Shown piece after piece: positions 22,002-39,436 of a DNA stretch of 64,000 nucleotides (its first letter is position 1; the number at the start of each line of letters is the position of its first letter). Source of the DNA: Methylobacter sp. S3L5C (GTDB lineage Bacteria; Pseudomonadota; Gammaproteobacteria; Methylococcales; Methylomonadaceae). The DNA is taken from contig NZ_CP076024.1 in NCBI RefSeq assembly GCF_022788635.1, forward strand, positions 1,488,001-1,552,000. Direction: 5' to 3'. The translations under genes and the position numbers were made by a program. The notes beneath the pieces are model-generated. The model was not told the DNA's origin and ran no database searches. It worked only from the letters and a program-made list of their open reading frames with translations.

Positions 22002-22031
22002 GACAAAGGCGCGAGTATTGCGCCTTTACCG

Positions 22032-23865: not shown

Positions 23866-24485
23866 TCAGAGGCAAGTTTATTACGCTGGAAGGTGGAGAA
23901 GGTGTAGGCAAGACGACTAATGTTGCTTTTATAAAGGATTATCTGCAACAGCATAATATTTCTGTTGTTGTTACACGCGAACCTGGAGGAACGGCATTAG
24001 CCGAAAAAATACGCCATTTATTGCTGGATAAAGACAGTGAAGCCATTTCAGAACATGCTGAATTATTGTTGATTTTTGCGGCCCGCGCCCAGCATATCAA
24101 ACATGTCATTGAGCCTGCTTTAGCTCAAGGAAATTGGGTGCTTTGTGATCGTTTTACTGATGCAACTTATGCTTATCAAGGTGGTGGTAGAAATATGCGT
24201 ATTAGCTCTATAGAGTGGTTGGAAAATTTGGTACAAGGTAATCTAAAGCCTGATTTGACTGTGTTGCTGGATGCGCCTGTTGAAATAGGTATAGAGCGAG
24301 CCAGGGTAAGAGGTGTTTTCGATCGTTTTGAATCAGAAAAAATCAGTTTTTTTGAGAGTGTCAGACGGGCTTATTTATTACAGGCAGAGTTGCATCCTGA
24401 GCGTATCAAGCTCATTCAGGCTAATCAGCCGTTAGGAGATGTGCAAAGGGCACTGATTGATACTATTCGTACTTTTTTAAGATGA
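23862..24485 (+). CDS. tmk: Thymidylate kinase
   Basis: 207 residues. P-loop LEGGEGVGKTT near the N-terminus, VTREPGGTALAEKIR, DRFTDATYAYQGGGR and the lid region are all typical of bacterial TMK. It phosphorylates dTMP to dTDP. The ATG overlaps the mltG stop (ATGA) and the 3' end overlaps holB by 4 bp, so the three genes are coupled. Confidence 0.96.
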   Translation: MIRGKFITLEGGEGVGKTTNVAFIKDYLQQHNISVVVTREPGGTALAEKIRHLLLDKDSEAISEHAELLLIFAARAQHIKHVIEPALAQGNWVLCDRFTDATYAYQGGGRNMRISSIEWLENLVQGNLKPDLTVLLDAPVEIGIERARVRGVFDRFESEKISFFESVRRAYLLQAELHPERIKLIQANQPLGDVQRALIDTIRTFLR

Positions 24486-25471
24486 CAATATTGCCTTGGC
24501 AGCAACAAAGTTGGGCACATCTCTGTGATTATAGAGCGCAAAACCGTGTCCCTCAGGCTTTATTAATAAGCGGTAATAAAGGTCTCGGTAAACAACAATT
24601 GGCCAAGCAATTTGCTTTTTCGCTGCTTTGTGATGCGCCACAAAACAACGGTTTGCATTGTGGTCATTGTGATCGTTGTTTATTGCTTAATGCGCAAACC
24701 CACCCGGATTTTCTGCAAATAACGCCTGATGAGCCGGGAAAAGCTATTACTATAGGACAAATTCGCGGTCTGGTAACCAGGCTGACCTTAAAGCCCCAGT
24801 TTGATTCCTGGCGCGTTGTTATTGTCAGTCCGGCTGATCTTATGAATAATGCCGCAGCGAATGCATTTCTAAAGTGTTTGGAGGAGCCGACAGAGCGCAC
24901 AGTTATTATTTTAATTTCTGATAAACCGGCCTGTTTGCCGGCGACTATTGTCAGTCGTTGCCAGAAACTTGTTGTTGTCAAACCTGATAAAGAAGCTGTC
25001 TTTGCCTGGCTCAAGGAGCAGAATGTAGCGATAGTGCATAGCGATGTTATTTCGCTTTATGGATTAGCGCAGGGTTCGCCGTTACTGGCACTGGCTTACT
25101 CCAATGACGGTACGTTAACTCTGCGTAATGACTGCTTTAAGGCATGGATTGATATAGCCAAACAACGCAGGCATCCGGTTGTTATTGCCGAGGAATGGCA
25201 TAAGTTACCTAATTCATCTTTATTATTCTGGATAACATCCTGGATTATCGACATGATTAAATGTTGTTACCCAATAAATGCCGACTGGTTATATAATCCG
25301 GACTTGAAAGAATCTTTGCAAGAGTTGTCTTTGCAAATTGAACTGAAAGAGCTTTATAAGTTGTATGATTTAATATTGGCGAGTCGGCAACGACTCAATA
25401 CTCAAATAAACAAGCAGACAATGTTTGAAGAAATTTTAATAAAGTGGCTTGAACTTAATCTGGTTAAATAA
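24482..25471 (+). CDS. holB: DNA polymerase III subunit delta-prime
   Basis: 329 residues. Walker-A-like ISGNKGLGKQQLAKQ, a four-cysteine zinc module (LLCDAPQNNGLHCGHCDRC), NAAANAFLKCLEEP and the SRC motif (IVSRCQK) are in the standard order for the clamp loader delta-prime subunit. The C-terminal ~120 residues are the less conserved collar domain. It helps load the sliding clamp at the replication fork. It is followed after 2 bp by a PilZ gene, as in Pseudomonas. Confidence 0.92.
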   Translation: MTILPWQQQSWAHLCDYRAQNRVPQALLISGNKGLGKQQLAKQFAFSLLCDAPQNNGLHCGHCDRCLLLNAQTHPDFLQITPDEPGKAITIGQIRGLVTRLTLKPQFDSWRVVIVSPADLMNNAAANAFLKCLEEPTERTVIILISDKPACLPATIVSRCQKLVVVKPDKEAVFAWLKEQNVAIVHSDVISLYGLAQGSPLLALAYSNDGTLTLRNDCFKAWIDIAKQRRHPVVIAEEWHKLPNSSLLFWITSWIIDMIKCCYPINADWLYNPDLKESLQELSLQIELKELYKLYDLILASRQRLNTQINKQTMFEEILIKWLELNLVK

Positions 25472-25473
25472 CC

Positions 25474-25824
25474 ATGGCAGAATCCGCGCCCAGGCAAGGG
25501 ATATTGACTGTTTCAATTAAGGATAAAAGCGCTTTATATGCAGCCTACATGCCGTTTGTTATAAACGGAGGCTTGTTTATTCCCACTAACCGGGACTATG
25601 ACATGGGGCAGGAAGTCTTTCTATTACTTAATTTAATGGAAGAAACCGAGCGGTTACCGATAGTCGGAAAAGTAATTTGGAAAACACCGCCTCGATCAGG
25701 CAGTTATCGAACCAGTGGTATTGGTGTGCAGTTTAGTGATCAGGATGGTGGTGTCGCACGAAATAAAATAGAAACCTATTTGGCGGGCGTTTTAACGTCT
25801 GACCGATCAACCCACACTATGTAA
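25474..25824 (+). CDS. pilZ: PilZ domain protein (type IV pilus type)
   Basis: 116 residues. The segment FVINGGLFIPTNRDYDMGQEVFLLLNL and the VGKVIWKTP...GIGVQFSDQD end match PilZ of the pilus-assembly group. The RxxxR motif needed for c-di-GMP binding in canonical PilZ domains is missing, as in Pseudomonas PilZ itself, so ligand binding is not expected. The holB-pilZ-tatD order is conserved in pseudomonads and relatives. A role in type IV pilus assembly is inferred from family and context. Confidence 0.88.
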   Translation: MAESAPRQGILTVSIKDKSALYAAYMPFVINGGLFIPTNRDYDMGQEVFLLLNLMEETERLPIVGKVIWKTPPRSGSYRTSGIGVQFSDQDGGVARNKIETYLAGVLTSDRSTHTM

Positions 25825-25835
25825 CTCTCTCATTC

Positions 25836-26600
25836 ATGTTAATTGACTCACATTGCCACTTGGATCGTATTGATCTGAAACCTTATCAAAATGATTTTTC
25901 TTGTTTTATGCAGGAAGCAGAAGCGAATCAACTTGAGCACTTATTGTGTATTGCTATCGATTTGGAGTCTTATCCGGCCATGTTGGATTTGGTAGCAGGT
26001 TATTCAAAAATATCCGTGACGGTTGGTGTGCATCCAAATGTTCAGGATTGCAAAGACCCTGGTGTTGATGAGTTAATTGCTTTAGGGCAGTCCGACAAAG
26101 TGCTTGGTATAGGTGAAACGGGCCTGGATTATTTTCGTAGTGAAGGTGATTTGAGTTGGCAGCATCAACGTTTCAGAAATCATATTAATGCGGCAAAAAG
26201 TTTAAAAAAACCGTTAATTATTCATACCCGCGAGGCCAAGGAAGATACTTTACGCATTCTCAAAGAAGAAGGTGCCGGCGAGGTTGGGGGAGTTATTCAC
26301 TGCTTTACCGAAGATTGGGAGTTTGCCCAGCAGGCGCTGGATTTGAATTTTTATATTTCTTTTTCCGGTATTGTTACGTTTAACAATGCCACGGTAATCA
26401 AAGAAGTGGCAAAAAAAGTACCTGCTGACCGTTTTCTTATTGAAACAGATTCGCCCTATTTGGCTCCGGTACCTTTTCGTGGCAGACCAAATTATCCAAT
26501 TTATGTGCGCTATGTGGCAGAGCAGATAGCTGATTTGCGAGGTATGCCAGTAAATAAAATAGCCGATCTGTCAACCAGGAATTTTTATGATTTATTTTAA
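25836..26600 (+). CDS. TatD family metal-dependent hydrolase (YcfH-like)
   Basis: 254 residues. Metal ligands appear in the expected places: DSHCHLD (4-10), GETGLDYF with the bridging glutamate, IIHTREA, GVIHCFTE and IETDSPYLAPVPFRG. Family members are DNase/exonuclease-like hydrolases. It is the last gene of the long run that begins at yceD and is followed by a 320-bp gap before the RuMP cluster. Confidence 0.92.
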   Translation: MLIDSHCHLDRIDLKPYQNDFSCFMQEAEANQLEHLLCIAIDLESYPAMLDLVAGYSKISVTVGVHPNVQDCKDPGVDELIALGQSDKVLGIGETGLDYFRSEGDLSWQHQRFRNHINAAKSLKKPLIIHTREAKEDTLRILKEEGAGEVGGVIHCFTEDWEFAQQALDLNFYISFSGIVTFNNATVIKEVAKKVPADRFLIETDSPYLAPVPFRGRPNYPIYVRYVAEQIADLRGMPVNKIADLSTRNFYDLF

Positions 26601-26829
26601 TTATGTTGATTTGCGGCAGGGTTAAAAAATAGTAAAAAATGGCGAACTACCGCTAAGTTCTTCTTAGTAAGGCAAATTAGTTGCTGGGCCTTGTATTAAC
26701 AACTCCATACTTGAGAGTAATCGTGTAAAATACCGTTAGACGCGTGAAATAAAAAAACATTTTGATGTTATTTAGACTATTTTATACCTATGCGGACCGG
26801 TTGGGATATTGATCATTGATCATTTGGGA

Positions 26830-26859
26830 TTGACATCTGTCCCCATTCTACTTTACAGT
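26830..26859 (+). promoter_or_regulatory. Possible promoter of the RuMP cluster
   Basis: TTGACA (26830-26835) and TACAGT (26854-26859) with an 18-bp spacer lie 65 bp before the hxlA start. The -35 is perfect and the -10 matches 4 of 6. The rest of the 26601-26923 gap shows nothing else definable. A CGGAG ribosome site precedes the hxlA ATG. Confidence 0.45.
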
Positions 26860-26923
26860 TGTGTCCGCAAAACAAGTATGTAACCAAATATAATTATTAA
26901 TATAACCCTTCGGAGCACTTATC

Positions 26924-27565
26924 ATGGCAAAAGCATTAATTCAAATGGCATTAGATTCACTGGATTTTGACGCAACAGTAGGCCTTGCTACATTGGTAGC
27001 ACCTTATGTTGACATTTTTGAAATTGGAACTCCTTGTATCAAACATAATGGCATCAATCTGGTTAGAGAACTAAGAGAAAGATTTCCGGATAAATTGTTG
27101 TTGGTTGATCTTAAAACAATGGATGCTGGCGAATACGAAGCAACTCCATTCTATGCAGCAGGCGCTGATATTGTTACTGTTCTTGGTGTATCAGGTCTGG
27201 CAACTTGCCAAGGCGTGATCAAAGCAGCTAATGCTCATGGCGCAGAAGCTCAAATCGATTTGATCAATGTTGACGATAAAGTAGCTTGTGCAAAAGCAAC
27301 TGCAGAAGCCGGCGCTCAAATCATGGGTATTCATACAGGTCTTGATGCTCAGGCAGCAGGTCACACTCCTTTTGCTGATTTGAATGATATCGCAGCATTA
27401 GGTTTGCCTGTAAGAATTTCAGTAGCGGGCGGCATTAAAGCATCAACAGTACAAGATGTTGTTAGAGCCGGTGCAAGCATTGTCGTAGTTGGCGCAGCCA
27501 TCTATGGTGCAGCATCACCTGCTGATGCAGCACGTGAAATTCGTGAATTGGTTGACGCCGTATAA
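26924..27565 (+). CDS. hxlA: 3-hexulose-6-phosphate synthase
   Basis: 213 residues, the usual length. The orotidine-decarboxylase-like TIM barrel motifs are present: ALDSLDFD (10-17), VDLKTMDAGEYEA with the Asp-Lys-Asp set, and the phosphate-binding VAGGIKAS and IVVVGAAIYGA. It condenses formaldehyde with ribulose 5-phosphate, the entry step of the RuMP pathway that marks type I methanotrophs. It lies 2 bp before hxlB. Confidence 0.96.
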   Translation: MAKALIQMALDSLDFDATVGLATLVAPYVDIFEIGTPCIKHNGINLVRELRERFPDKLLLVDLKTMDAGEYEATPFYAAGADIVTVLGVSGLATCQGVIKAANAHGAEAQIDLINVDDKVACAKATAEAGAQIMGIHTGLDAQAAGHTPFADLNDIAALGLPVRISVAGGIKASTVQDVVRAGASIVVVGAAIYGAASPADAAREIRELVDAV

Positions 27566-27567
27566 TT

Positions 27568-28101
27568 ATGCATCAGCAACTTATCATAGAAAAGATTTCA
27601 GGTATTCTTGAAGCAACCGATGATACGTATGATGTTAAGCTGACCCACTTGCTTGATAATGCTAAACGCGTGTTTATCGCAGGCGCTGGACGGTCCAAAC
27701 TGGTTGGCAATTTTTTTGCCATGAGATTGGTACATGGCGGTTACGATGTAAGTGTCGTTGGCGAAATTGTAACGCCAAGCATTAAAAGTGGTGATCTGTT
27801 GATTATCATCTCCGGTTCTGGAGAGACTGAACAACTGATAGCATTCACTAAAAGTGCTAAAAAAGTAGGTGCTAACATTGTGTTGATTTCGGCAAAAAAC
27901 GATTCAACAATTGGTGATATGGCCGATGCAGTGTTCCAAATTGGTCGTTCAGATCTATATGGCAAAGTTTTAGGAATGCCAATGGGAACCGTATTTGAGC
28001 TTTCTACCTTACTATTTTTGGAAGCAACCATTGCTCATGTTATCCATGACAAAGGTATTGCTGAAGAAGTTATGAGAGAAAGACACGCTAATTTAGAGTA
28101 A
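27568..28101 (+). CDS. hxlB: 6-phospho-3-hexuloisomerase
   Basis: 177 residues with a SIS sugar-isomerase fold: AGAGRSKLVGNFFAMRLVHGG (~33-52) and IISGSGETEQLI (~75-86), then MPMGTVFELSTLLFLEA. It converts hexulose 6-phosphate to fructose 6-phosphate. It follows hxlA with almost no gap, so the two are co-transcribed. A 10-bp stem-loop follows the stop. Confidence 0.95.
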   Translation: MHQQLIIEKISGILEATDDTYDVKLTHLLDNAKRVFIAGAGRSKLVGNFFAMRLVHGGYDVSVVGEIVTPSIKSGDLLIIISGSGETEQLIAFTKSAKKVGANIVLISAKNDSTIGDMADAVFQIGRSDLYGKVLGMPMGTVFELSTLLFLEATIAHVIHDKGIAEEVMRERHANLE

Positions 28102-28109
28102 TGTCAAAA

Positions 28110-28134
28110 GAACGAGTGGTTATGCCACTCGTTC
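28110..28134 (+). promoter_or_regulatory. Perfect stem-loop after hxlB
   Basis: GAACGAGTGG (28110-28119) pairs exactly with CCACTCGTTC (28125-28134) around TTATG. It has no T-run. It starts 8 bp after hxlB and about 100 bp before tkt, a position suited to mRNA processing or protection of the upstream hxlAB message. Confidence 0.6.
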
Positions 28135-28230
28135 AAACGTCATATGACGCATCAAAAAAATTTCGTGACAAAATCGCCCAGTTGATAGAAGTCACTACAC
28201 ATAATTTATAAGAATAGTAAGGGGAACAAT

Positions 28231-30225
28231 ATGACTTCGCGCCGAGAATTAGCGAACGCCATACGCGCTTTGAGCATGGATGCCGTTCAAAAAGCAAACT
28301 CTGGACACCCTGGTGCTCCAATGGGAATGGCAGATATTGCCGAGGTTTTGTGGAATGATTTTATGCGCCACAACCCGACCAATCCACAATGGTCAAATCG
28401 GGACCGTTTCGTGCTTTCTAATGGCCACGGTTCAATGCTGATTTATTCTTTGTTGCATCTGACTGGCTACGCTTTGCCAATCGAAGAGCTAAAGAATTTT
28501 CGCCAACTTCATTCTAAAACGCCTGGTCACCCGGAATATGGCTATGCGCCAGGCGTAGAAACAACTACCGGTCCTTTAGGTCAAGGTATTACCAATGCGG
28601 TAGGTATGGCGATTGCTGAAAAAGCACTTGCTGCCCAATTCAACAGGGATGGACACAAAATTGTTGACCATCACACCTATGCTTTTTTAGGTGATGGCTG
28701 CTTGATGGAAGGTATTTCTCACGAAGCCTGTTCATTGGCTGGAACCTTGGGCTTAGGTAATTTAATCGCTTTCTGGGACGACAATGGCATTTCCATTGAC
28801 GGTCATGTTGAGGGCTGGTTTACCGACAATACGCCGATGCGTTTTGAAGCTTACGGCTGGCATGTTATCGCTGATGTCGATGGACACGATTCTGTTGCGC
28901 TCATTAAAGCAATCCAAATGGCCAAGGCCATGACCGATAAGCCCACCATGATTTGTTGCAAAACAACCATTGGTTTTGGTTCGCCAAATAAAGCCGGTAG
29001 CCATGCCTGTCATGGTGCCGCTCTGGGTCAGGATGAAATTAATCTGACTAAAGCCGCTTTGGGTTGGGATCATGAAGCCTTTGTAGTCCCAGCGGATGTT
29101 TATGCGGGTTGGGATGCTAAAGCCAAAGGTGCTCAAGCTGAAAACGAATGGAATGAAAAATTCGCAGCTTATCAAGCAGCTCATCCTGAGTTAGCCGCTG
29201 AATATCAACGTCGTACTGTTGGTGAATTGCCCAAAAACTGGCAAGCTGATGCGGACGCTTTTGTCAGTGCAGTTGATGCTGAAGCCAAAACAACGGCTAC
29301 ACGTTTGTCTTCACTCGCTGCAATTGAAGGGTTTGCAAAGCTTTTACCTGAAATTTTTGGTGGGTCTGCCGATTTGGGCTGTTCCAACATGACTGAATGG
29401 ACTGGCTACAAGCCTATGCGTGCCGATAAGCCTGATGCCAATTACATCAATTACGGTGTGCGTGAATTTGGTATGTCTGCGATTATGAATGGTATCGCCT
29501 TGCATGGCGGCTTTATTCCATTTGGCTCGACTTTCCTGATGTTCTCGGAATATGCCCGTAATGCCTTGCGTATGGCTTCTTTGATGAAGATTCGTGCACT
29601 TTTTGTTTATACTCATGACTCTATCGGTTTGGGTGAAGATGGTCCTACTCATCAACCTGTTGAACAAATCGCAACACTGCGTCTGATTCCAAATATACAA
29701 GTGTGGCGTCCTTGTGATGCAGTTGAAACCACAGTGTCTTGGAAAGCCGCTATAGAGCGTCAAAACGGGCCTTCTATTTTGGTTTTTTCCCGTCAGAATT
29801 TGCCTCATGTACCACGTACTCAAGAGCAAATTGAGGCGATTTCACGTGGTGGATATATATTGAGTGACTGCGATGGACAACCAGAAGCTATTATCATCGC
29901 TACCGGTTCAGAAGTTGAATTGGCACTGAAAGCGGCTGAGCAGTTAACTGCAGCAGGTAAAAAAATTCGTGTAGTTTCTATGCCGTCTACCAATATCTAC
30001 GATGCTCAAGATGCTGCTTATCGTGAGTCAGTATTGCCTGCTGCGGTGACTCAGCGTGTCGCGGTTGAAGCGGGTGTGACTGATGGTTGGTGGAAGTACG
30101 TAGGAACCAACGGTAAAATTGTAGGTCTCGACCGTTTCGGCGAGTCTGCTCCAGCGGGTCAGCTTTTCAAAGAGTTTGGCTTCACCGTTGAAAACGTAGT
30201 CAAGAACGTAGAAGCAGTACTTTAG
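28231..30225 (+). CDS. tkt: Transketolase
   Basis: 664 residues, full length. The thiamine diphosphate motif GDGCLMEG...NLIAFWDDN, the [16 protein letters not shown] substrate region, [19 protein letters not shown] and [19 protein letters not shown] are all present. It shuffles two-carbon units to regenerate ribulose 5-phosphate. The start after AAGGGGAAC is clear. It lies downstream of hxlB, inside the RuMP cluster. Confidence 0.97.
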
Positions 30226-30265
30226 TTTTAAAACAAAATATAGAGTAGTTATACACATTAAATTT

Positions 30266-30318
30266 GGAGAGAGCTCCTCACTTTAGAGGCACTAATAATC
30301 TGGTGTGTCGGGCTCTCT
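30266..30318 (+). promoter_or_regulatory. Structured leader before the repeat-protein genes
   Basis: AGAGAGC (30268-30274) pairs with GCTCTCT (30312-30318), enclosing a second stem, CCTC (30276-30279) with GAGG (30286-30289). It lies between the tkt stop and the start of the first KY-repeat gene. A role in mRNA stability or translation is possible; no riboswitch class was recognised. Confidence 0.4.
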
Positions 30319-30340
30319 AACCACTTCTTCCGACTTTTAG

Positions 30341-31060
30341 GTGAACAACGTGAAAAAGAATAATTTGACCAAATGTGCATTCGCGGCATTGCTATTAGCA
30401 AGTACCGTTGCTGGCGCAGATCAACAATACCCTGCTGCAGATTTCCAGCCTGAAGTGCTTTATCAGGATGCTGACTATATCGCCAAGAATAGCCCGGCAA
30501 AAGCTGCTGCCAAGGCTCCTGCTGCCAAAGCGCCTGTCTCTGCTCCAGCCGCTGCAGTTACTCCTGAAAGCACTGCTGATTCAAAATATCCTGCAGCAGA
30601 CTTCCAGCCGGAAGTTTTGTATGTTGATCCTAACTACAAAGCTATCGAGTCAGTGAAAGCGACTGTAGCGAAAAAAGAAGCTGCTTCAACTGCGGTAGAA
30701 AGTGAAGCTGTCAGTGAAAGTATCACTGCTCCTGAAGCTACTGAAGAAGCATCCATGTCGAGCTATCTCATTGGCTTGGTAGTTCTTGCTTTAGCTGGAT
30801 TTTATTTCTTCAAAAGACGTAGTGCTGTTGCTGTTGAGAAAAAAGCCTCAGAACCTGCTAAAAGAACTTATTCGCTTACAGGTGTTGGTAAGTATTTAAA
30901 CAAAATATCAGGTACCGGCGTTACCAGATATCTGGAAAAAAATGTAAGATCCGCATCAGTAACCGGCGTTGCCAAATATATGGCAAAACAGGCTGCATCA
31001 CCAAAAGAAGCAGGAAAAGCAGCAACTGGTGTTGAAAAATACATGCGCGACCGGGGATAA
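30341..31060 (+). CDS. Membrane-anchored KY-repeat protein 1 (unassigned family)
   Basis: 239 residues from GTG 30341; GTG 30350 is equally possible with AGGTGA before it. A signal peptide ends near VAGA-DQ (~26). A periplasmic part carries the same 12-mer YPAADFQPEVLY twice (30-41 and 83-94), each followed by xDxxY, separated by an Ala/Pro/Lys linker. One transmembrane segment (~140-158) ends in FFKRR, so the C-terminus should be cytoplasmic. That tail has four TGVxKY[LM]-type motifs starting at 180, 192, 208 and 229. No catalytic motif was seen. It lies between tkt and tal and directly upstream of a related gene. Function unknown; RuMP-linked scaffolding is a hypothesis. Confidence 0.75.
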   Translation: MNNVKKNNLTKCAFAALLLASTVAGADQQYPAADFQPEVLYQDADYIAKNSPAKAAAKAPAAKAPVSAPAAAVTPESTADSKYPAADFQPEVLYVDPNYKAIESVKATVAKKEAASTAVESEAVSESITAPEATEEASMSSYLIGLVVLALAGFYFFKRRSAVAVEKKASEPAKRTYSLTGVGKYLNKISGTGVTRYLEKNVRSASVTGVAKYMAKQAASPKEAGKAATGVEKYMRDRG

Positions 31061-31063
31061 TCA

Positions 31064-31852
31064 ATGAGCCAGAATAACTTGAGTGGATTGTTTTTTCCTG
31101 CTGTTGCCGGCTTATTCTTTTTTATGAAACGGCCTAAAACCGAGGAAATTAAGGCTGTTTATCCTGTCTATTCCAGAGATTCCGACGGGCTTACTGGTGT
31201 TGCCAAGTATTTGGATCATCAGAATGCTTTAAGCAGAAAAGAAATTGAGCAGGAAAATCGGATGTCAAATCAATCGGCGACTGGAGTTGCCCGGTATTTG
31301 GAAAGCCAGAGCAAGTCTTCTGCCAGTCGTGTAGCCAAGTATATTCTGAGACAGTCAATAGCTGAAAAACAGAAAAGACAGTCCCTTGGTGAAAACGAAG
31401 TTACAGGCGTTGAAAAATACCTTAAAAATAAAAAAGCAGCACCAGGACTTAGTGGCGTAGAAAAATATCTGAAACATCAGGCAAGTTTGCCGCAACCTAG
31501 TAAAGTTGCCAAGTATCTGGCAAAACAATCAGCTTTGTCTGCCCTGCAAGTGCAGCACGCTCAAGTAGAAGTATCTGGAGTTGCCAAGTATTTACAACAT
31601 CAGGCAAGTTTGCCACAGCCAAGCCGGGTTGCCAAGTATATGGCAAAGCAAGCGGTTTTGGCCGCTTTGGCAGCGAAGCAGGTTAAGCAAGCTGTAGGTC
31701 AAACCAAGGTTGATCAGTATCTGCAACATCAGGCGAGTCTGCCGCAGATAAGTAGGGTTGCCAAGTACATGGTAAGACAAGCTTTGGTTGACAGGCAAAA
31801 ACCCGTTGCGGTTGAAACAGGTGTCGAAAAGTACATGCGGCACCAAGGTTAA
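31064..31852 (+). CDS. Membrane-anchored KY-repeat protein 2 (unassigned family)
   Basis: 262 residues, starting 3 bp after the previous stop. A short N-terminal hydrophobic anchor (GLFFPAVAGLFFFMKR, ~8-23) resembles the anchor of the upstream protein and would leave the rest in the cytoplasm. Eleven copies of [TS][GRK]V[AED][KRQ]Y[LMI] start at 44, 73, 88, 114, 130, 146, 171, 187, 214, 230 and 252. Most are paired 15-16 residues apart with 22-29 residues between pairs; ASLPQ[PI] links three of the pairs. It is rich in K, Q and A and very basic. No enzyme motif was seen. It looks like a multivalent binding or scaffold protein; partners are unknown. Confidence 0.75.
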   Translation: MSQNNLSGLFFPAVAGLFFFMKRPKTEEIKAVYPVYSRDSDGLTGVAKYLDHQNALSRKEIEQENRMSNQSATGVARYLESQSKSSASRVAKYILRQSIAEKQKRQSLGENEVTGVEKYLKNKKAAPGLSGVEKYLKHQASLPQPSKVAKYLAKQSALSALQVQHAQVEVSGVAKYLQHQASLPQPSRVAKYMAKQAVLAALAAKQVKQAVGQTKVDQYLQHQASLPQISRVAKYMVRQALVDRQKPVAVETGVEKYMRHQG

Positions 31853-32065
31853 TAAATCTTTTGAGAAACAGACTGCCGTCATAGCGATTTTAACGATCGC
31901 TGGCGGAGTTTTTCTCTGTTTCTCCTCTATTGGGGCTGGTTTTAAATCACTTTGCCTTAATTATTATCGTTTCTACCAACGGCCAAATTCAAGCATTCGC
32001 GATACTGATTAATCATTACGCGCGACCATTCGATTTTTTAATTATAAATATAAAAGGCACCAATT

Positions 32066-33052
32066 ATGGGAAAAAATTTACTAGAGCAACTTAAAGAATT
32101 CACTGTTGTTGTGGCTGATACCGGAGATATCCAGGCAATTGAAACTTTTAAGCCTCGTGATTCTACTACAAACCCATCGTTAATTACTGCAGCTGCACAA
32201 ATGCCGCAATACCAAGGCATTGTTGATGATACGTTGAAAGCCGCCAGAGCCAGTAAAGGAAAAGCGGCTTCAGCTGCCGAGGTAGTTTCACTTGCCTTTG
32301 ACAGCCTTGCTGTTTCTTTTGGTCTTAAGATTCTTGAGATTATTCCTGGCCGCGTTTCAACTGAAGTTGATGCCCGTCTTTCTTTCGATACTGATGCTAC
32401 CATTGCAAAAGGTCGTGAGTTAATAGCGCAATACGAAGCAAATGATGTTGCTCGTGACCGTGTATTAATTAAAATTGCTGCTACCTGGGAAGGTATTCAG
32501 GCAGCTGCCGTTCTTGAAAAAGAGGGTATTCATTGTAATTTGACGCTATTGTTTGGTCTTCATCAGGCTATTGCTTGTGCCGAAAATGGCATCACTCTGA
32601 TTTCTCCTTTTGTTGGACGTATTCTTGATTGGTACAAGAAAGATACCGGCCGTGATTCTTATGCGCCTGCAGAAGATCCAGGTGTGGTTTCAGTCACTGA
32701 AATCTACAACTATTACAAAAAATTTGGTTACAAGACTGAAGTTATGGGTGCCAGTTTCAGGAGTCTTGGTGAAATTACAGAATTAGCCGGTTGTGATTTG
32801 TTGACGATTGCGCCTTCTTTGTTGGCCGAGTTGCAAGCCACAGAAGGTGACTTACCACGCAAGCTTGATCCAGAAAATGCAGCAACATTGTCAATTGAAA
32901 AATTAACTATTGATAAAGCAACTTTTGATCGTATGCACGTTGAAAACCGCATGGCTAACGATAAATTAGCTGAAGGTATCAGCGGCTTTGCGGCTGCACT
33001 GGAAGCCCTTGAAGAGCTTCTTGCTGCCCGTTTGGCTAGCCTGGAAGGTTAA
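32066..33052 (+). CDS. tal: Transaldolase
   Basis: 328 residues of the TalB class. The Schiff-base lysine is Lys136 in [55 protein letters not shown] and [11 protein letters not shown] are typical. It transfers dihydroxyacetone units in the RuMP regeneration arm. A 213-bp AT-rich gap separates it from the repeat-protein genes, so it may have its own promoter. Confidence 0.96.
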
Positions 33053-33062
33053 AAAAGCGCTA

Positions 33063-33100
33063 CGTCATTGGGTATGGACGATTGTCATGTCCGAATGACG
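33063..33100 (+). promoter_or_regulatory. Stem-loop between tal and fba
   Basis: CGTCATT (33063-33069) pairs with AATGACG (33094-33100), with an inner GGAC (33076-33079) / GTCC (33089-33092) stem. It has no T-run directly after. Probably an mRNA boundary rather than a full stop, since fba follows 49 bp later in the same direction. Confidence 0.45.
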
Positions 33101-33148
33101 CCGAGTTTTATTACCCCTCAAGCAAATTGACTTAAACAGGATACCAAA

Positions 33149-34228
33149 ATGTCACAAAAAATTTTAGATGTAGTTAAACCCGGCGTTGTAACCGGTGAAG
33201 ATGTCCAAAAAATCTTTGCAATTTGTAAAGAAAACAAGTTCGCAATGCCGGCTGTTAATGTTATCAATACTGATTCAATTAATGCCGTATTGGAAGCCGC
33301 CGCCAAGGTGAAATCACCTGTTGTTATTCAGTTTTCTAACGGTGGCGCTCAATTTGTTGCAGGTAAAGGTCTTAAATTAGACGGTCAGGATGCTGCGGTT
33401 CTTGGTGCTATCTCAGGCGCTCAGCATGTTCACCTGATGGCAGAAGCTTATGGTGTACCGGTTATTCTTCATACAGATCACGCAGCAAAAAAATTATTGC
33501 CCTGGATTGATGGCTTGTTGGATGCTGGCGAAAAACATTTTGCTGCAACAGGCAAACCTTTATTCAGCTCGCACATGTTGGATTTATCGGAAGAAAGTCT
33601 GCACGAAAATATTGAAATTTGTGGTCAATACCTGGCACGTATGTCCAAAATGGGCATGACACTAGAAATCGAATTGGGTGTTACCGGTGGTGAAGAAGAC
33701 GGCGTTGATAACAGCAATTTGGATCATTCATTGTTGTACACACAGCCAGAAGACGTTGCTTATGCTTATGAAGAATTAAGCAAAATTAGTCATCGTTTTA
33801 CCATCGCGGCTTCTTTTGGCAATGTGCATGGCGTTTACAAGCCAGGTAATGTTAAATTGACACCTGCCATATTGGCCAATTCGCAAAAATATGTCACTGA
33901 AAAATATGGCATACCTGCGAATACATTGAATTTTGTTTTCCACGGTGGTTCGGGTTCTTCTGCGGCAGAAATCAAAGAATCGATTAGCTACGGTGTCGTT
34001 AAAATGAACATTGATACTGATACTCAGTGGGCTACTTGGGAAGGTATCATGAACTTTTACAAGGAAAATGAAGGTTATTTGCAAGGTCAAATCGGCAATC
34101 CTGACGGTGACGACAAGCCTAACAAAAAATATTATGATCCACGTGTTTGGCAACGTGCCGGTGAAGTGGGAATGATCACTCGCCTGGAACAAGCTTTTAA
34201 GGAATTGAACGCTGTACATACTTTGTAA
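33149..34228 (+). CDS. fba: Fructose-bisphosphate aldolase, class II
   Basis: 359 residues of the E. coli FbaA type. Zinc and catalytic residues lie in ILHTDHAAKKLLPW; EIELGVTGGEEDGVDN and FHGGSGSSAAEIKESISYGVVKMNIDTDTQWATW are conserved blocks. It cleaves fructose 1,6-bisphosphate, and possibly sedoheptulose bisphosphate, in the RuMP cleavage and rearrangement arms. It is the last gene of the cluster and is followed by a terminator. Confidence 0.96.
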   Translation: MSQKILDVVKPGVVTGEDVQKIFAICKENKFAMPAVNVINTDSINAVLEAAAKVKSPVVIQFSNGGAQFVAGKGLKLDGQDAAVLGAISGAQHVHLMAEAYGVPVILHTDHAAKKLLPWIDGLLDAGEKHFAATGKPLFSSHMLDLSEESLHENIEICGQYLARMSKMGMTLEIELGVTGGEEDGVDNSNLDHSLLYTQPEDVAYAYEELSKISHRFTIAASFGNVHGVYKPGNVKLTPAILANSQKYVTEKYGIPANTLNFVFHGGSGSSAAEIKESISYGVVKMNIDTDTQWATWEGIMNFYKENEGYLQGQIGNPDGDDKPNKKYYDPRVWQRAGEVGMITRLEQAFKELNAVHTL

Positions 34229-34248
34229 TAGCAGCAGACGATTCAATT

Positions 34249-34282
34249 AAAAAAGCCGGTGTTTGATGCATCGGCTTTTTTT
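34249..34282 (+). terminator. Rho-independent terminator after fba
   Basis: AAAAAAGCCG pairs with CGGCTTTTTT and ends in a T-run. It starts 20 bp after the fba stop and closes the RuMP cluster. Confidence 0.88.
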
Positions 34283-34692
34283 ATGCCCGACATTCCGCAA
34301 CTTACCCCAAGAAACCTGGACAATAAAAAGTCGAAAAACAACTTTCGTATCGATAAGGGTATTTGGTTGATGGCGACCCCACGTGTTTCTTAAATCACCA
34401 AAGCGCATTATGGCGCTAATGATGATGATCCTCTGACTTTTAATAGTTGTCGATAGGTCATTTTGAATTGCAAGCTGCTGACAATTTGAATAAGAATGAA
34501 TGCTGCCGTGTTGTGACGAGCCAACAGGTATTACTTATCGATAATATTTAAATAGCTATTTTATAAAACAGACTCGCCATACTGTACAATTAAGTCCGTT
34601 ATAGTTGTTAACATATTAATTTATCTCTCGGTGATTTCCATGAAATGCACTATATCCTTCTTAAAGTTATCAATAATGTTTTAAGTTTAAAT
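34283..34692. other. Intergenic region, nothing recognised
   Basis: About 400 bp between the fba terminator and the GH17-type gene. No gene, strong hairpin or repeat was seen. It should contain the promoter of the next gene. Confidence 0.35.
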
Positions 34693-36594
34693 ATGAAAAT
34701 CTCCAGGCTCATTGTGTTTTTTTTATTGGTTATCGCTGTTAACGGTTTGTTGTCGTGGTTAAGCAATTTACCACAGGATGCAGGTCCCGATGTTCCTGAC
34801 GGTAAAATCAGCAGCGTTTCTTTTGCCCCGTTTCGTGAAGGACAAAGTCCATTAACAGAAGTATTTCCTAAAGCTGAAGAGATAGACGAAGATTTACGGT
34901 TGTTATCTACCGAAACCCATACCATACGCACTTATGCCAGCACGCGCGGCTTGACCGATGTAGCGGCTATGGCTCAAAAATATGGCCTTAATGTTATACA
35001 AGGTGCCTGGATAGGTGGGATGACCATGGCCGAGGAAAATCAGGCCGAGATTGATCAATTAATTAAAGTCGCCAATCAATATCCGGATGTTATCAAGCGG
35101 GTTATCGTCGGCAATGAAGTCCTGCTCAGGGGGGAGTTGGAGCCGGAACAACTGCTGCAATACATCCGGCAAGTTAAAAAAGCAGTTAAACAGCCGGTTT
35201 CTTATGCTGATGTCTGGTCTTTTTATATGCGTTATCCGGAAATTGCCAAGGAAGTTGATTTTTTCACTGTGCATATTTTGCCATACTGGGAAGATGAACC
35301 CTTAACAATTGAAGAAACTGCTGCACATATAGAAAAAAATTACCGGAAAATCCGCGAAGCTTATCCAGATAAGCCGATTTTAATCGGCGAGTCGGGTTGG
35401 CCAAGTGCAGGACGTCAGCGTGGTTGGGCGGTACCCAGTGTCGTTAATGAAGCCAAGTTTATTCGCTCGCTGGTGCAATTGGCCAATAAGAACGGCTTTG
35501 ACTATAACGTTGTCGAGGCATTTAATCAGCCGTGGAAAAGCCAACTTGAAGGCGTGGTCGGTGCTAATTGGGGGCTTTATTCTGCAGATCGCGAGCTGGT
35601 CTTTCCATTGACCGGCAAGGTAACGGAAAATCCTTTGTGGCCGAAGCGCTTGCTTTATGCAGCTTTGATTACGTTACTTGTGGGCGGCTGGCAAGCAAAA
35701 GCGCTCTTTAGGCTTGCGCCAATTCGCTTATTAGGTTTTCTCGGCTTTACTCAATTACTCAGTACTTTATTAGTTAATCAGATCGGTGATTATTGGTATA
35801 CCAGCTATAGCCTGATCGAGCGACTACAAGTCTGGTTTATTGGCGGGTTGAGCTTGTTGTTGGGCTGCTTGATACTCGGTCGTACATTAGATGTGTTAAA
35901 AGACAGTATGAGCGAAAAATGTGGTCTATGGATACGTTATTTAATACTGGCCTTTGTTGCTATTGCGCTATATGAATCCCAGGCTTTGGCGTTGAATGGA
36001 CGTTATCTTAGTATGCCTTATCCAATGACTTATATACCAGTGGTCGGCATAGTAGGTTTTATGGTTATTCGTTATTTTGTAAAAGGCGAAAATTATATCT
36101 TCTCGTTAAGAATTAATGACCTGTTCAGTACACAAGCCCTCTCAGTAAAATCGGCTAAAATAGTCAGTCTCGTATTAGCGTTAACAGGCTTGCTTTTAAT
36201 TGTTATTGAAATGGATTTTATTATGCATAACTCAAATTATGAAGAGGCTTATCCTGTTTTATTTGACAGGATTTATGCGACATTCATGGTCACCTGCAAC
36301 TATAGCCAGTTAATGGGCTGGCCTATGTTGATCGCGGCAGTTCTTTTTCGAATCCCTTTGCGGGCTTGCGCTTATGCGTTGATTTTTATGGTTCTAGCCA
36401 TTATCATAGGCGAAACTTGTACGTTCCTTATGGGGCACGATTTTATCGAGAGCTACCCCAATGTTGGCGAAAGAGTATCGATGGCCTTTATTTATACAAT
36501 AACTAACTGCGAGTTACTGCTTTGGTTAGCCAGTTTACTGATACTGGCGTTCCCGTTGTGGCAGTACCGAGACAATAAAACCTCTGGTGCGTAA
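34693..36594 (+). CDS. GH17-type glucanase/transglycosylase with membrane C-terminus
   Basis: About 633 residues from ATG 34693; ATG 34645 would add 16. An N-terminal signal or anchor (LIVFFLLVIAVNGLLSWL) is followed by a GH17-like TIM barrel (~35-310) with the acid/base Glu142 in IVGNEVLL and the nucleophile Glu233 in IGESGWPS. The second half has about eight hydrophobic segments. Bacterial proteins of this layout act on beta-1,3-glucans, sometimes as branching transferases of cyclic glucans. No glucan synthase is adjacent. Substrate not proven. Confidence 0.75.
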   Translation: MKISRLIVFFLLVIAVNGLLSWLSNLPQDAGPDVPDGKISSVSFAPFREGQSPLTEVFPKAEEIDEDLRLLSTETHTIRTYASTRGLTDVAAMAQKYGLNVIQGAWIGGMTMAEENQAEIDQLIKVANQYPDVIKRVIVGNEVLLRGELEPEQLLQYIRQVKKAVKQPVSYADVWSFYMRYPEIAKEVDFFTVHILPYWEDEPLTIEETAAHIEKNYRKIREAYPDKPILIGESGWPSAGRQRGWAVPSVVNEAKFIRSLVQLANKNGFDYNVVEAFNQPWKSQLEGVVGANWGLYSADRELVFPLTGKVTENPLWPKRLLYAALITLLVGGWQAKALFRLAPIRLLGFLGFTQLLSTLLVNQIGDYWYTSYSLIERLQVWFIGGLSLLLGCLILGRTLDVLKDSMSEKCGLWIRYLILAFVAIALYESQALALNGRYLSMPYPMTYIPVVGIVGFMVIRYFVKGENYIFSLRINDLFSTQALSVKSAKIVSLVLALTGLLLIVIEMDFIMHNSNYEEAYPVLFDRIYATFMVTCNYSQLMGWPMLIAAVLFRIPLRACAYALIFMVLAIIIGETCTFLMGHDFIESYPNVGERVSMAFIYTITNCELLLWLASLLILAFPLWQYRDNKTSGA

Positions 36595-36756
36595 TCAGAT
36601 TATTCAGCAAGTAGCAATACCCAGTATTGGTAAATTATATGTATGGGGTTGTAATTAATAATGCCATTACCTGCGCTTTTTTGTTCAGAACAAGACAATC
36701 CCTATCTCAGGCAATAGAATAGGTTGATCATTAGTTAACTTATTATATTTCCTGCC

Positions 36757-37986
36757 TTGTTAAATATCATCTGGATTTGCTTCTTCCTTGCCGCTTTTTT
36801 TACTGCGCTATTTAAACTGATTTTTCTGGGCGACCAGCAAGTTTTTGCACAAATCATGGAAGCCATGTTTAGCTTGTCTAAATCGGCTTTTGAAATTTCG
36901 CTAGGCTTAACCGGTGTACTGGCGTTGTGGTTAGGGATTATGCGGATTGGTGAAAAGAGCGGTTTTATTCTGTTATTAACGCAAAGTCTTACGCCTTTAT
37001 TTAGCCGTTTAATGCCCGATGTGCCCAAAGGACATCCGGCCTTGGGCGCTATCGTGATGAATATTTCCGCCAATGCCTTGGGTCTGGATAATGCAGCAAC
37101 GCCTTTAGGAATTAAGGCGATGAAGGAACTGCAAACATTAAATCCCAATCCTGACACGGCTACCAACGCGCAAATTTTGTTTTTGGTTATTAATACGTCA
37201 GGCGTTACGCTATTTCCCATTACTATTTTTACTTACCGTGCTCAGCTCGGTGCGGAAAATCCTACAGACGTATTTATTCCAATTTTAATTGCGACTTATA
37301 TATCCACGCTGGTCGGTTTGCTTGCCGTCGCTTTTGTGCAAAAAATCAATTTGCTGGATAAAGTTGTAATGGCTTATCTGGGCAGCTTTACGCTGGTCGT
37401 TGGCGGTTTGCTGGTTTATTTTTCCAGTTTGCCGCAACAGCAAATGCTTCAGCAATCTGCGATTATCAGTAATATTATTCTGTTTTCGTTAATCATCAGT
37501 TTTATTTTTGGTGCCCTTTATAAGGGTATTAATGCTTACGATGCCTTTATAGAAGGTGCTAAAGAAGGTTTTCAAACGGCTATATTGATCATTCCTTATC
37601 TGGTGGCCATGCTGGTTGCCATTGGGGTATTCAGAGCCAGCGGTGCCCTGGAGATGCTCGCTGATTTGGCAAGAACTCTTGTGCATTATTTTGGCATTGA
37701 TGACCGTTTTGTTGATGCTCTACCTACGGCTTTAATGAAGCCTTTCAGTGGCAGTGGTGCCAGAGCGATGATGATAGATACCATGAAGACACATGGTGCC
37801 GATTCATTTTCCGGCCGTCTGGCGTCTGTGGTGCAAGGCAGTACGGAAACCACTTTTTACGTATTGGCCATTTACTTTGGCTCAGTGGGTATCAAACGTA
37901 TTCGTCATGCCGCTGCCTGTGGGATAATAGCCGATTTTGCAGGCATTATTGCCGCAATTTTTGTTACCTATTGGTTCTTTGGATAA
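36757..37986 (+). CDS. Fused SpmA/SpmB nucleoside-recognition (Gate) membrane protein
   Basis: 409 residues starting at TTG 36757. The N-terminal half resembles SpmA (GHPALGAIVMNISANALGLDNAATPLGIKAM) and the C-terminal half SpmB (GAKEGFQTAILIIPYLVAMLVAIGVFRASGALE, MKPFSGSGARAMM, QGSTETTFYVLAIYFG). Multiple transmembrane helices are evident. In Bacillus the two halves are separate spore-maturation proteins; fused forms occur in non-sporulating bacteria with unknown substrate. It lies 3 bp before mtaB, so they are likely co-transcribed. Confidence 0.85.
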   Translation: MLNIIWICFFLAAFFTALFKLIFLGDQQVFAQIMEAMFSLSKSAFEISLGLTGVLALWLGIMRIGEKSGFILLLTQSLTPLFSRLMPDVPKGHPALGAIVMNISANALGLDNAATPLGIKAMKELQTLNPNPDTATNAQILFLVINTSGVTLFPITIFTYRAQLGAENPTDVFIPILIATYISTLVGLLAVAFVQKINLLDKVVMAYLGSFTLVVGGLLVYFSSLPQQQMLQQSAIISNIILFSLIISFIFGALYKGINAYDAFIEGAKEGFQTAILIIPYLVAMLVAIGVFRASGALEMLADLARTLVHYFGIDDRFVDALPTALMKPFSGSGARAMMIDTMKTHGADSFSGRLASVVQGSTETTFYVLAIYFGSVGIKRIRHAAACGIIADFAGIIAAIFVTYWFFG

Positions 37987-37989
37987 TTA

Positions 37990-39291
37990 ATGAAAGTTCA
38001 CCTTAAAACACTCGGCTGCCGTCTTAACGAAGCAGAATTGGAAACTTGGGCGCAAGCGTTTCAAAAGTCCGGGCATTCAATTACCAGACAGGCAGAAGCG
38101 GCCCAGCTGATTGTGATTAATTCCTGTGCGGTTACGCAGGACGCCGCCAGGAAATCACGTCAACTTATACGTCGTATACACCGAGATAATCCACAAGCCA
38201 AGCTGGTGGTCAGTGGTTGTTACGCGACCTTAAACCAGGATGAAGCGGCGTCTTTATTGGGTGTTGATTTGGTTGTGAGCAACAAGGATAAAGATCAGCT
38301 GGTAGAAAAAACATTAACCGAACTTAATATGGATGTTATGCCTGCGATGTCGACAGAGCCGGGTGAAATATCATTATTTACTCGTGGACGGCAACGCGCT
38401 TTTGTTAAAGTCCAGGATGGCTGTCGTTATCGCTGTACATTTTGTATTGTTACCGTGGCGCGTGGTGATGAAATTAGCCGCCCGGTGCAGGCGGTGATAG
38501 ATGAAATCAATGCCCTATATAAACAAGGCATTACTGAGGTTATCCTTACCGGTGTACATTTAGGTGGCTATGGTAGTGATTTGGGCAATAATTTGTCCGA
38601 TTTAATCAACGCTATTTTGTCTGAAACAGACATTCCAAGGCTTAGACTCGGTTCTTTAGAGCCTTGGGAATTACCGGAAGATTTTTTTACGTTGTTTCAT
38701 AATCCACGCTTGATGCCGCATTTACATTTGCCGCTGCAAAGTGGTTCGGATACCGTTCTACGTAGAATGGCGCGGCGTTGTAAAACAGAAGAATTTAGCC
38801 TAATTGTTAGTCAATTGCGGGCGCAAATTCCTCACTTTAATATTACTACAGATATTATTGTCGGCTTTCCCGGCGAAACCGAGGAAGAATGGCAGGACAG
38901 TTTTAACTTTATCAAACAAACCGGTTTTGGGCATATTCATATTTTTACCTATTCCAGTCGTGAAGGTACAAAAGCGGCTACCTTGCCAAACCAGTTGACC
39001 AATGATATTAAGAAACAGCGTAGCCAGCAGTTGCATGTTTTGGCGAATGATATGAAATTGGCATTTTGCCAGGAAAATATCGACAATGAATTTCCGGTAT
39101 TATGGGAAGGTTACCATGAACCACTGGAAGGCGGAAAACAGCGGGTGTTTGGCTATACGCCCAATTACCTTAAAGTCAGTTGTGTGATAAACAACGATGA
39201 ATCGGTTGAAAATAAAATCATTACCACAAAATTAATGGCGGTCAAGGAAGGCTATATTGTTGGTGAGCTTGACGGTAACCGCTTGCTTTAA
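37990..39291 (+). CDS. mtaB: tRNA t6A37 methylthiotransferase
   Basis: 433 residues. The N-terminal UPF0004 domain has cysteines in LGCRLNEAE, INSCAVT and VVSGCYATL. The radical SAM cluster is Cys145-x3-Cys149-x2-Cys152 (DGCRYRCTFCIVTVARG). The ETDIPRLRLGSLEP, MPHLHLPLQSGSDTVLRRM and TDIIVGFPGETEEEW blocks fit MtaB rather than MiaB or RimO. It adds methylthio to t6A37 in tRNAs reading ANN codons. Confidence 0.92.
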   Translation: MKVHLKTLGCRLNEAELETWAQAFQKSGHSITRQAEAAQLIVINSCAVTQDAARKSRQLIRRIHRDNPQAKLVVSGCYATLNQDEAASLLGVDLVVSNKDKDQLVEKTLTELNMDVMPAMSTEPGEISLFTRGRQRAFVKVQDGCRYRCTFCIVTVARGDEISRPVQAVIDEINALYKQGITEVILTGVHLGGYGSDLGNNLSDLINAILSETDIPRLRLGSLEPWELPEDFFTLFHNPRLMPHLHLPLQSGSDTVLRRMARRCKTEEFSLIVSQLRAQIPHFNITTDIIVGFPGETEEEWQDSFNFIKQTGFGHIHIFTYSSREGTKAATLPNQLTNDIKKQRSQQLHVLANDMKLAFCQENIDNEFPVLWEGYHEPLEGGKQRVFGYTPNYLKVSCVINNDESVENKIITTKLMAVKEGYIVGELDGNRLL

Positions 39292-39436
39292 ACAAGAGAT
39301 AAACTAACCTGAGAATTGCTTTATCAGTAAAATCAGGTATACCGAAGTACTATGAGATAACAGTTATTACAGGATTCAAAGGTAGGATATCAGGTTGAAT
39401 CTGAGTAATATTTTACTCCCAATACGTTAAAAATAG

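Follow-up and report, generated by a model that had tools for sequence, protein, structure and literature searches.

What do two proteins of no recognized family do in the middle of a gene cluster for the ribulose monophosphate (RuMP) cycle? The question is raised by a 64,000-nucleotide stretch of Methylobacter sp. S3L5C (contig NZ_CP076024.1, positions 1,488,001 to 1,552,000; hereafter the window), in which two adjacent genes, here called Rep1 and Rep2, lie between transketolase (tkt) and transaldolase (tal). Their products are built on a short motif, [TS]xVx[KRQ]Y[LMI], which we call KY. We propose, and give the idea an even chance, that both proteins are docking strings, largely disordered and dedicated to RuMP, that bind the 3-hexulose-6-phosphate synthase HxlA at the inner membrane.

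Rep1 (30341..31060, + strand) starts with GTG and encodes 239 residues; Rep2 (31064..31852, +) encodes 262. An earlier note on this DNA had described two adjacent genes between transketolase and transaldolase with four and eleven copies of the motif, many of them paired 15-16 residues apart, and the open reading frames (ORFs) bear this out. The KY motifs of Rep1 lie at residues 180, 192, 208, and 229, and those of Rep2 at residues 44, 73, 88, 114, 130, 146, 171, 187, 214, 230, and 252, with five of the ten Rep2 spacings being 15 or 16 residues. In 10,000 composition shuffles, the mean motif count was 0.0021 for Rep1 and 0.0065 for Rep2, with maxima of 1 and 2, and no other ORF of at least 100 residues in the window contains the motif. 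Across the whole 4.8 Mb genome, a DNA pattern for [TS]GVxxY[LMI] gave 21 matches, 10 of which fall inside the 1.5 kb of Rep1 and Rep2; the 11 outside are at chance level, because a reversed control pattern gave 15 matches in the same genome. Only one of these 11 sits in a long frame (336 residues, locus L090), which presumably encodes a cysteine synthase-like protein, and we judge this match to be chance as well. When the window is compared with its relatives L013 and L003, third codon positions vary most in both genes, and Rep1 and Rep2 therefore look selected at the protein level.

To describe the motif structurally, we used AlphaFold2 (AF2) models run on the family alignments, with a mean predicted local distance difference test (pLDDT) of 56 for Rep1 and 66 for Rep2 and a predicted template-modeling (pTM) score of 0.17. 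The KY string of Rep2 (residues 44-258, 31193..31837, +), as delimited by motif positions and helix starts, contains predicted helices beginning at residues 45, 89, 115, 131, 147, 172, 188, 215, 231, and 253, so that in ten of the eleven motifs the Thr or Ser lies one residue ahead of a helix start; the motif at 73 falls inside helix 45-83. The motifs of Rep2 are often paired through SLPQP-like links. AF2 also places a short helix at every KY motif of Rep1. The motif helices are amphipathic and basic; the Thr or Ser would serve as N-cap, the Val, Tyr, and Leu, Met or Ile would share one face, and the Lys or Arg would stand beside them. Given the helices predicted at the motifs, the most fitting picture of KY is a capped helix set in a flexible chain. 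Going by these models, Rep1 and Rep2 have one trait looked for in a scaffold, many conserved short motifs on a disordered chain.

Rep1 has a further half that the earlier note overlooked, made of a signal-peptide-like start and two repeats that we call YPA. The start (residues 1-26, 30341..30418, +; cleavage site judged by eye) contains AF2 helix 7-21, and A26 is invariant in 27 of 27 aligned relatives. The first repeat, YPAADFQPEVLYQD (residues 30-43, 30428..30469, +), is invariant in the family alignment at Y30, P31, A32, P37, and V39, and the second, YPAADFQPEVLYVD (residues 83-96, 30587..30628, +), at P84, A85, P90, V92, and D96; both fit YPAADFQPEVLY[QV]D. A transmembrane (TM) helix follows (residues 137-160, 30749..30820, +; best 19-residue Kyte-Doolittle mean 1.95; AF2 helix 137-160), and then a basic tail carrying the four KY motifs (residues 180-239, 30878..31057, +; AF2 helices 183-186, 193-203, 209-218, and 230-237). 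The 78 residues from 162 onward hold 16 Lys or Arg versus 6 Asp or Glu. Since the basic side of a TM helix faces the cytoplasm under the inside-positive rule, both YPA repeats would be periplasmic and the KY half cytoplasmic, in agreement with the basic cytoplasmic repeat part predicted before. The single membrane anchor that had been assigned to each protein holds for Rep1; Rep2, in contrast, has only a borderline hydrophobic N-terminal segment (residues 7-22, 31082..31129, +; Kyte-Doolittle 1.15), a possible anchor for which AF2 gives no helix and a pLDDT under 50.

Neither protein has a usable family match in Pfam, NCBIfam, PHROGs, or the PDB, in line with the earlier statement that no such family is known. 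Rep1 passes the cut-off of the LPXTG-anchor model TIGR01167 in NCBIfam (16.4 bits versus 15.9, E 0.011), and we reject this match because it covers the TM helix only (residues 135-160) and Rep1 has no LPXTG motif; four PHROGs of unknown function that match Rep2 (E 0.0004 to 0.05) were taken as repeat noise. Two queries of 72,556 plasmid records returned no KY protein, and HxlA at less than 60% identity is present in 146 plasmid records. Nine pattern matches in viral contigs include no relative. In the open-licence literature searched, the letters of the motif gave no match, and titles and abstract openings gave no description of the family, which does not establish its absence in print; the available parts of two papers make no mention of it (PMC5802761, PMC3728764).

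A scan of one genome per species (84,980 species) gave 73 Rep2-like loci, hosted by Methylococcales genera and bins, four bins named 'uncultured proteobacterium', and one Cloacimonadota (L074), dropped as chance since no ORF there has two motifs. The other 72 have both tkt and tal in 58 cases, tal only in 10, tkt only in 2, and neither in 2 (L053 and L054), both of which start at a contig end no more than about 0.5 kb from the gene. We then counted distinct KY ORFs of less than 800 residues with at least three motifs (loose form) in the fetched loci, which came from Rep-profile or HxlA matches, so that these counts cover fetched loci and not all genomes; L201 (two motifs) and long ChpA-like ORFs (over 800 residues), none of them near a RuMP gene in the fetched stretches, fall outside the filter. 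A RuMP gene lies within 3 kb on the same strand for 176 of the 181 KY ORFs. The five without one in their stretch comprise the two at contig ends, L053 and L054, and three true exceptions (L141, L202, and L203). L141 is the L171 gene of genome G011 and has no RuMP gene in 18 kb, and the L202 protein (L202:8424-9269), with none in the 17 kb fetched, carries a Cys/His-containing CQAVTGKGTQC segment at its C-terminus.

The KY gene occurs in three arrangements: tkt-KY-tal; KY-hxlA-hxlB; and, in the family f10, which belongs to a second order, hxlA-KY-tal. The order hxlAB-tkt-[repeat]-tal-fba that the earlier note put forward holds in f1, the family of the window; other families use other RuMP positions. 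In f4, which we infer to be the Methylococcaceae, the KY gene as a rule stands ahead of hxlA-hxlB, the exceptions being G075 (between tkt and tal) and one G011 gene, and in G003 the order is tkt-fba-KY-hxlA-hxlB-tal. When RuMP cassettes are doubled (G003, G021, and G049), each copy has its own KY gene, and G008, an f1 genome, has three tandem tkt-KY units with hxlAB; thus all four tandem-cassette genomes that we looked at have a KY gene per copy. The RuMP genes of M. capsulatus have been described as tandemly repeated, with no KY-type protein named in the parts of those sources available (PMC517821, PMC8527097). According to the accessible part of a CRISPR interference screen of M. capsulatus on methane, guides directed at two RuMP operons, MCA3040-45 and MCA3046-50, scored negative for fitness (PMC13108547); judging from the G003 order, the gene counts of these operons would fit an unnamed KY gene in each.

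The family f10, probably Methylophilaceae, has small genomes, with two hxlA genes where read, and the Rep1 profile matches 50 of its 57 genomes, some solely in a ChpA-like ORF. The best 27 of the f10 loci (L228-L254) all contain a KY frame of 93-135 residues with 3-6 motifs, in the order hxlA-KY-tal in 26 of them; L248, which starts at a contig edge, reads KY-tal-hxlA. The f10 protein, often about 100 residues with four motifs, has an N-terminal MSxKGFFASICxFFKGLFSS segment; it shows no YPA repeats, no clear TM helix, and, by eye, no signal peptide. As KY persists in f10 where the YPA part is missing, it is KY that looks like the core function, with the YPA half looking like a Methylococcales addition. 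For the same reason, and for want of a clear TM helix in f10, the core function cannot lie in placement at a methane-oxidizing membrane, given also that f10, if it is Methylophilaceae, presumably lacks the particulate methane monooxygenase (pMMO). One f10 bin (L227; 77% complete, 5% contamination) has a Methylococcales-like Rep1/Rep2 pair, possibly contamination. These data show that the KY family is linked to the RuMP pathway in two orders and that the link to this one pathway persists across rearrangements, a second trait of a scaffold.

KY and HxlA also occur in the same genomes. Among 369 genomes across the class, the Rep1 profile (E<=1e-4) matches six and HxlA (E<=1e-20) matches six, and they are the same six. 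With these six as HxlA bearers and 176 of 181 KY ORFs beside RuMP genes, the wide spread of homologues among unrelated genes or non-methylotrophs that the earlier note had named as counting against its idea was not seen. By our tally, the profile matches 265 of 301 Methylococcales genomes (223 of 227 in f1), and with an HxlA threshold of 1e-40, 245 of the 301 have both, 29 neither, 20 Rep only (many of them fragmented bins), and 7 HxlA only. The f6 and f2 matches that we read (G005, G022, G026, and G009) are YPA-type proteins without KY. Of 48 genomes chosen for a search with a KY-only profile, eight match, namely the window genome, G018, and six of f10; the profile finds nothing in eight f4, nine f6, and 16 other-class control genomes. 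Five of the six f10 matches lie in a ChpA-like or equally long ORF, and that of G719 lies in the RuMP slot. Neither KY nor HxlA is present in G668, an f10 genome with a completeness rating of 100%.

We compared HxlA, the proposed partner (hxlA, 26924..27565, +), in a tree of 69 sequences and in a residue count of 123 distinct sequences, five of which are incomplete yet cover the two sites discussed here, E70 (codon 27131-27133) and E108 (codon 27245-27247). In 102 columns, conservation reaches at least 97% among 44 HxlAs that go with KY; E108, one of these columns, is replaced in each of the five KY-less lineages, by Q, W, K/Q, Q, and Q, with one of the two G061 copies (the K/Q lineage) still Glu. 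Chance would yield 5e-5 such columns under independence, a figure that is too small because the KY-less lineages are not independent. In the HxlB control (12 KY-less sequences from four lineages), no column tracks KY. The column scan left out seven paralogues labelled 'other' in the tree, which the contrast test below includes, and G018 was counted as KY-less both in that test and in lineage f6a of the scan.

E70 and E108 are both kept in 103 of the 123 HxlAs, and 101 of these 103 come from genomes with a RuMP-type KY protein: for 95, the locus fetched itself contains a KY ORF, and six (one from the window genome, three from G011, and one each from G003 and G008) come from genomes with KY elsewhere. 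We had at one point set G719 aside as a KY-less genome with both residues intact; profile A3 then found a KY match in the slot, and it is counted as KY-bearing. Seventeen of the other 20 HxlAs lose E108, and three (two from G045, one from G061) keep E108 and lose E70; 19 of the 20 are from genomes in which no KY was found and one is from G018. The Mycobacterium gastri synthase (3ajx) has Gly at 108 and Glu at 70. As a lead, these residue patterns suggest that HxlA carries a docking site for KY.

Several observations weigh against HxlA docking as we propose it. The E70/E108 pattern was found post hoc; KY-less HxlAs sit on long branches, where general relaxation could explain part of it, and the tree requires several gains or losses of KY. 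Independent tree contrasts computed with these two columns removed go the same way in three of three cases, too few for significance (sign test p 0.25). G018 has a changed HxlA at a locus without KY and yet a KY contig in the bin, G718 has an intact HxlA with KY seen only in a ChpA-like ORF, and G709 (55% complete) has an intact HxlA with no KY found. In nine of the 245 genomes with both matches (eight f6 genomes and G045), no KY turns up with the KY-only profile. HxlA occurs without KY in eight f4 genomes and, G018 excepted, in the f6 genomes that bear HxlA, so RuMP enzymes can do without KY. No KY ORF was found in the 3.6 kb fetched around three hps-phi-type long-frame HxlA copies (G003, G008, and G011) and two more G011 copies. 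The RuMP gene nearest to a KY ORF is tal in 88 cases and tkt in 68, exceeding hxlA with 20. The motif also occurs outside RuMP proteins: an f10 hybrid kinase of the ChpA/PilL-like type, with Hpt, HATPase, CheW, and receiver domains, has about five KY-type motifs in its linker (L225:3745-9852; other ORFs are about 1800-2065 residues), and the bins G674, G681, and G683 have KY of this type with no HxlA found. Finally, the AF2 confidence is low, which is also our basis for treating the chains as probably disordered.

How might such a protein work? Many KY helices on a flexible chain would form a multivalent string that binds HxlA, with acidic residues of the enzyme, E108 and E70 among them, as the probable contacts. 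The TM helix of Rep1 and the short N-terminal hydrophobic or amphipathic segments of Rep2 and the f10 homologue would tether the resulting cluster to the inner membrane, which would be where formaldehyde from periplasmic methanol oxidation enters, to the benefit of its capture, and the YPA repeats of Rep1 may hold a periplasmic partner on the opposite side. In the fullest form of this idea, which we regard as tentative and on balance doubtful, KY proteins would be the first natural scaffold known for the RuMP cycle: KY helices would bind HxlA via E70 and E108 in a formaldehyde-capturing cluster or condensate at the inner membrane, and in methanotrophs the YPA repeats would grip a periplasmic formaldehyde producer such as methanol dehydrogenase.

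There is precedent for such a layout. CsoS2, in alpha-carboxysome assembly, and EPYC1, the algal pyrenoid linker, are disordered basic chains with a repeated short helical motif that gather a carbon-fixing enzyme, and the KY proteins resemble them in being predicted disordered basic chains with many short helical motifs that would gather theirs. They differ in motif, pathway, and membrane link. No CsoS2 model is listed for Rep1 or Rep2 in Pfam or NCBIfam at E up to 10 (HMMER filters drop most matches above about 0.1), the PDB holds no significant sequence relation, and on reading the ORFs of window positions 22000-40000 we noticed no carboxysome shell or RuBisCO genes, the neighbors being RuMP genes. 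If the docking idea is right, KY proteins would work like CsoS2 and EPYC1; they are members of neither family.

A different precedent points to regulation. CP12 is a small, disordered protein dedicated to the Calvin cycle, with two end sites; KY proteins are likewise disordered by prediction and dedicated to a carbon-fixation cycle, although they have no family match and many repeats. KY proteins could in this way be regulators or assembly factors of RuMP enzymes, switching rather than gathering them, which we hold to be unlikely. The same gene linkage and the same HxlA residue pattern would result, and the f10 protein, with its four motifs in about 100 residues, could be a small regulator; against this, the motifs are numerous and their number differs between proteins (2 to 18 with the patterns applied), a better fit to avidity than to regulation of one enzyme by one protein, and the membrane segment would have no clear role. 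The binding partner might instead be Tal, Tkt, or another RuMP enzyme, as the counts of nearest genes would suggest (Tal 88 and Tkt 68 of 181). We consider this very unlikely, given that KY stands directly ahead of hxlA in f4 and that, with the columns of HxlA and HxlB scanned, the only residues found to track KY are in HxlA.

Two further explanations involve membranes and a cellular hub. The amphipathic, basic helices might bind acidic lipids or one another and so shape or stack intracytoplasmic membranes, which many Methylococcales form, with the RuMP neighbors explained by strong co-expression only; the TM helix and YPA repeats of Rep1 would suit this. It is nonetheless a decidedly unlikely account: f10, in another order with HxlA, has KY at a similar place without YPA or a clear TM helix and, if Methylophilaceae, presumably has no methane-oxidizing stacked membranes, and the presence of KY tracks HxlA and two of its residues. 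Lastly, KY could serve generally to dock proteins at a cell-pole or chemosensory hub, with the RuMP KY proteins bringing enzymes there. The ChpA-like kinase of f10, present even in bins with no HxlA detected, is what recommends this explanation, and we think it highly improbable, since clustered motifs in the window genome are confined to Rep1 and Rep2 and the eight KY-less f4 and 16 other-class control genomes have no KY match. With these alternatives in view, the scaffold gathering RuMP enzymes that the earlier note had proposed keeps partial support, from the RuMP linkage and from a fitting E70/E108 pattern, and KY in the ChpA-like kinase is left unexplained by it.

The rest of the cluster around Rep1 and Rep2 is as follows, all on the + strand. 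After hxlA come hxlB, 6-phospho-3-hexuloisomerase (27568..28101; named from sequence and place), and tkt (28231..30225), the upstream neighbor of Rep1; downstream of Rep2 are tal (32066..33052) and fba, fructose-bisphosphate aldolase (33149..34228). Between Rep2 and tal, a long hairpin at 31863-31924 (fold of 31850-32066, z -2.49) is a possible processing or attenuation site. In G018, an f6 bin, the KY-bearing contig (L166, on C1) is an 11 kb KY-tkt-tal-fba stretch with match scores nearly those of the f3 genome G002, and represents contamination or recent transfer. In the KY-less genome G045 (L301), a phosphoribulokinase-like gene lies just ahead of hxlA, and the contig also carries tkt and tal. 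One f10 KY protein (L222:9147-9440) has a sub-threshold match to Pfam ATP_synth_reg/DAPIT (PF14960; E 3e-4, 20.6 bits, cut-off 25). DAPIT is a single short membrane protein of the mitochondrial ATP synthase with a TGIKKYF stretch, and we take the likeness as probably chance or convergence.

The YPA repeats of Rep1 are a module independent of KY and are also found without it. In the window genome, L134:8935-9231 (C1:3235934-3236230) encodes a 98-residue exported protein that has three YPAxxFxPxVIY-like motifs but neither KY nor a TM helix, flanked by cysDN-like genes and a CstA-like transporter (named by reading). L187:8100-8939 encodes a secreted protein with a Polyketide_cyc2 (SRPBCC) domain and two of the same YPA repeats at its C-terminus; it differs from Rep1 in having no KY, and the fetched 9.4 kb contain no RuMP gene. 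Membrane proteins of f6 and f2 (L177:9223-9864, L192:9034-9681, L197:8853-9497, and L179:1007-1660) combine YPA-type repeats with a charged tail that lacks KY; here too, the stretches fetched contain no RuMP gene, and L177 and L192 have a mutS-like gene nearby. A search for a neighbor common to the YPA-only genes found none, and the neighbors of the L134 gene do not recur at the other YPA loci tested.

It has long been asked how methylotrophs keep formaldehyde, which is toxic, from leaking away on its path from source to RuMP cycle. The hexulose-phosphate synthase of Methylococcus capsulatus is reported of old to be particulate, in a large form that reportedly falls apart at low ionic strength, and the KY family may bear on this form. 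In engineered methylotrophs, according to the part of the source available, fused Mdh, Hps, and Phi complexes are being constructed to shorten the distance that formaldehyde must travel (PMC8879981). A natural, unnamed family that accompanies hexulose-phosphate synthase in two orders would make the question directly testable, and if KY helices do dock on HxlA, KY peptides would be ready-made docking peptides for synthetic methylotrophy.

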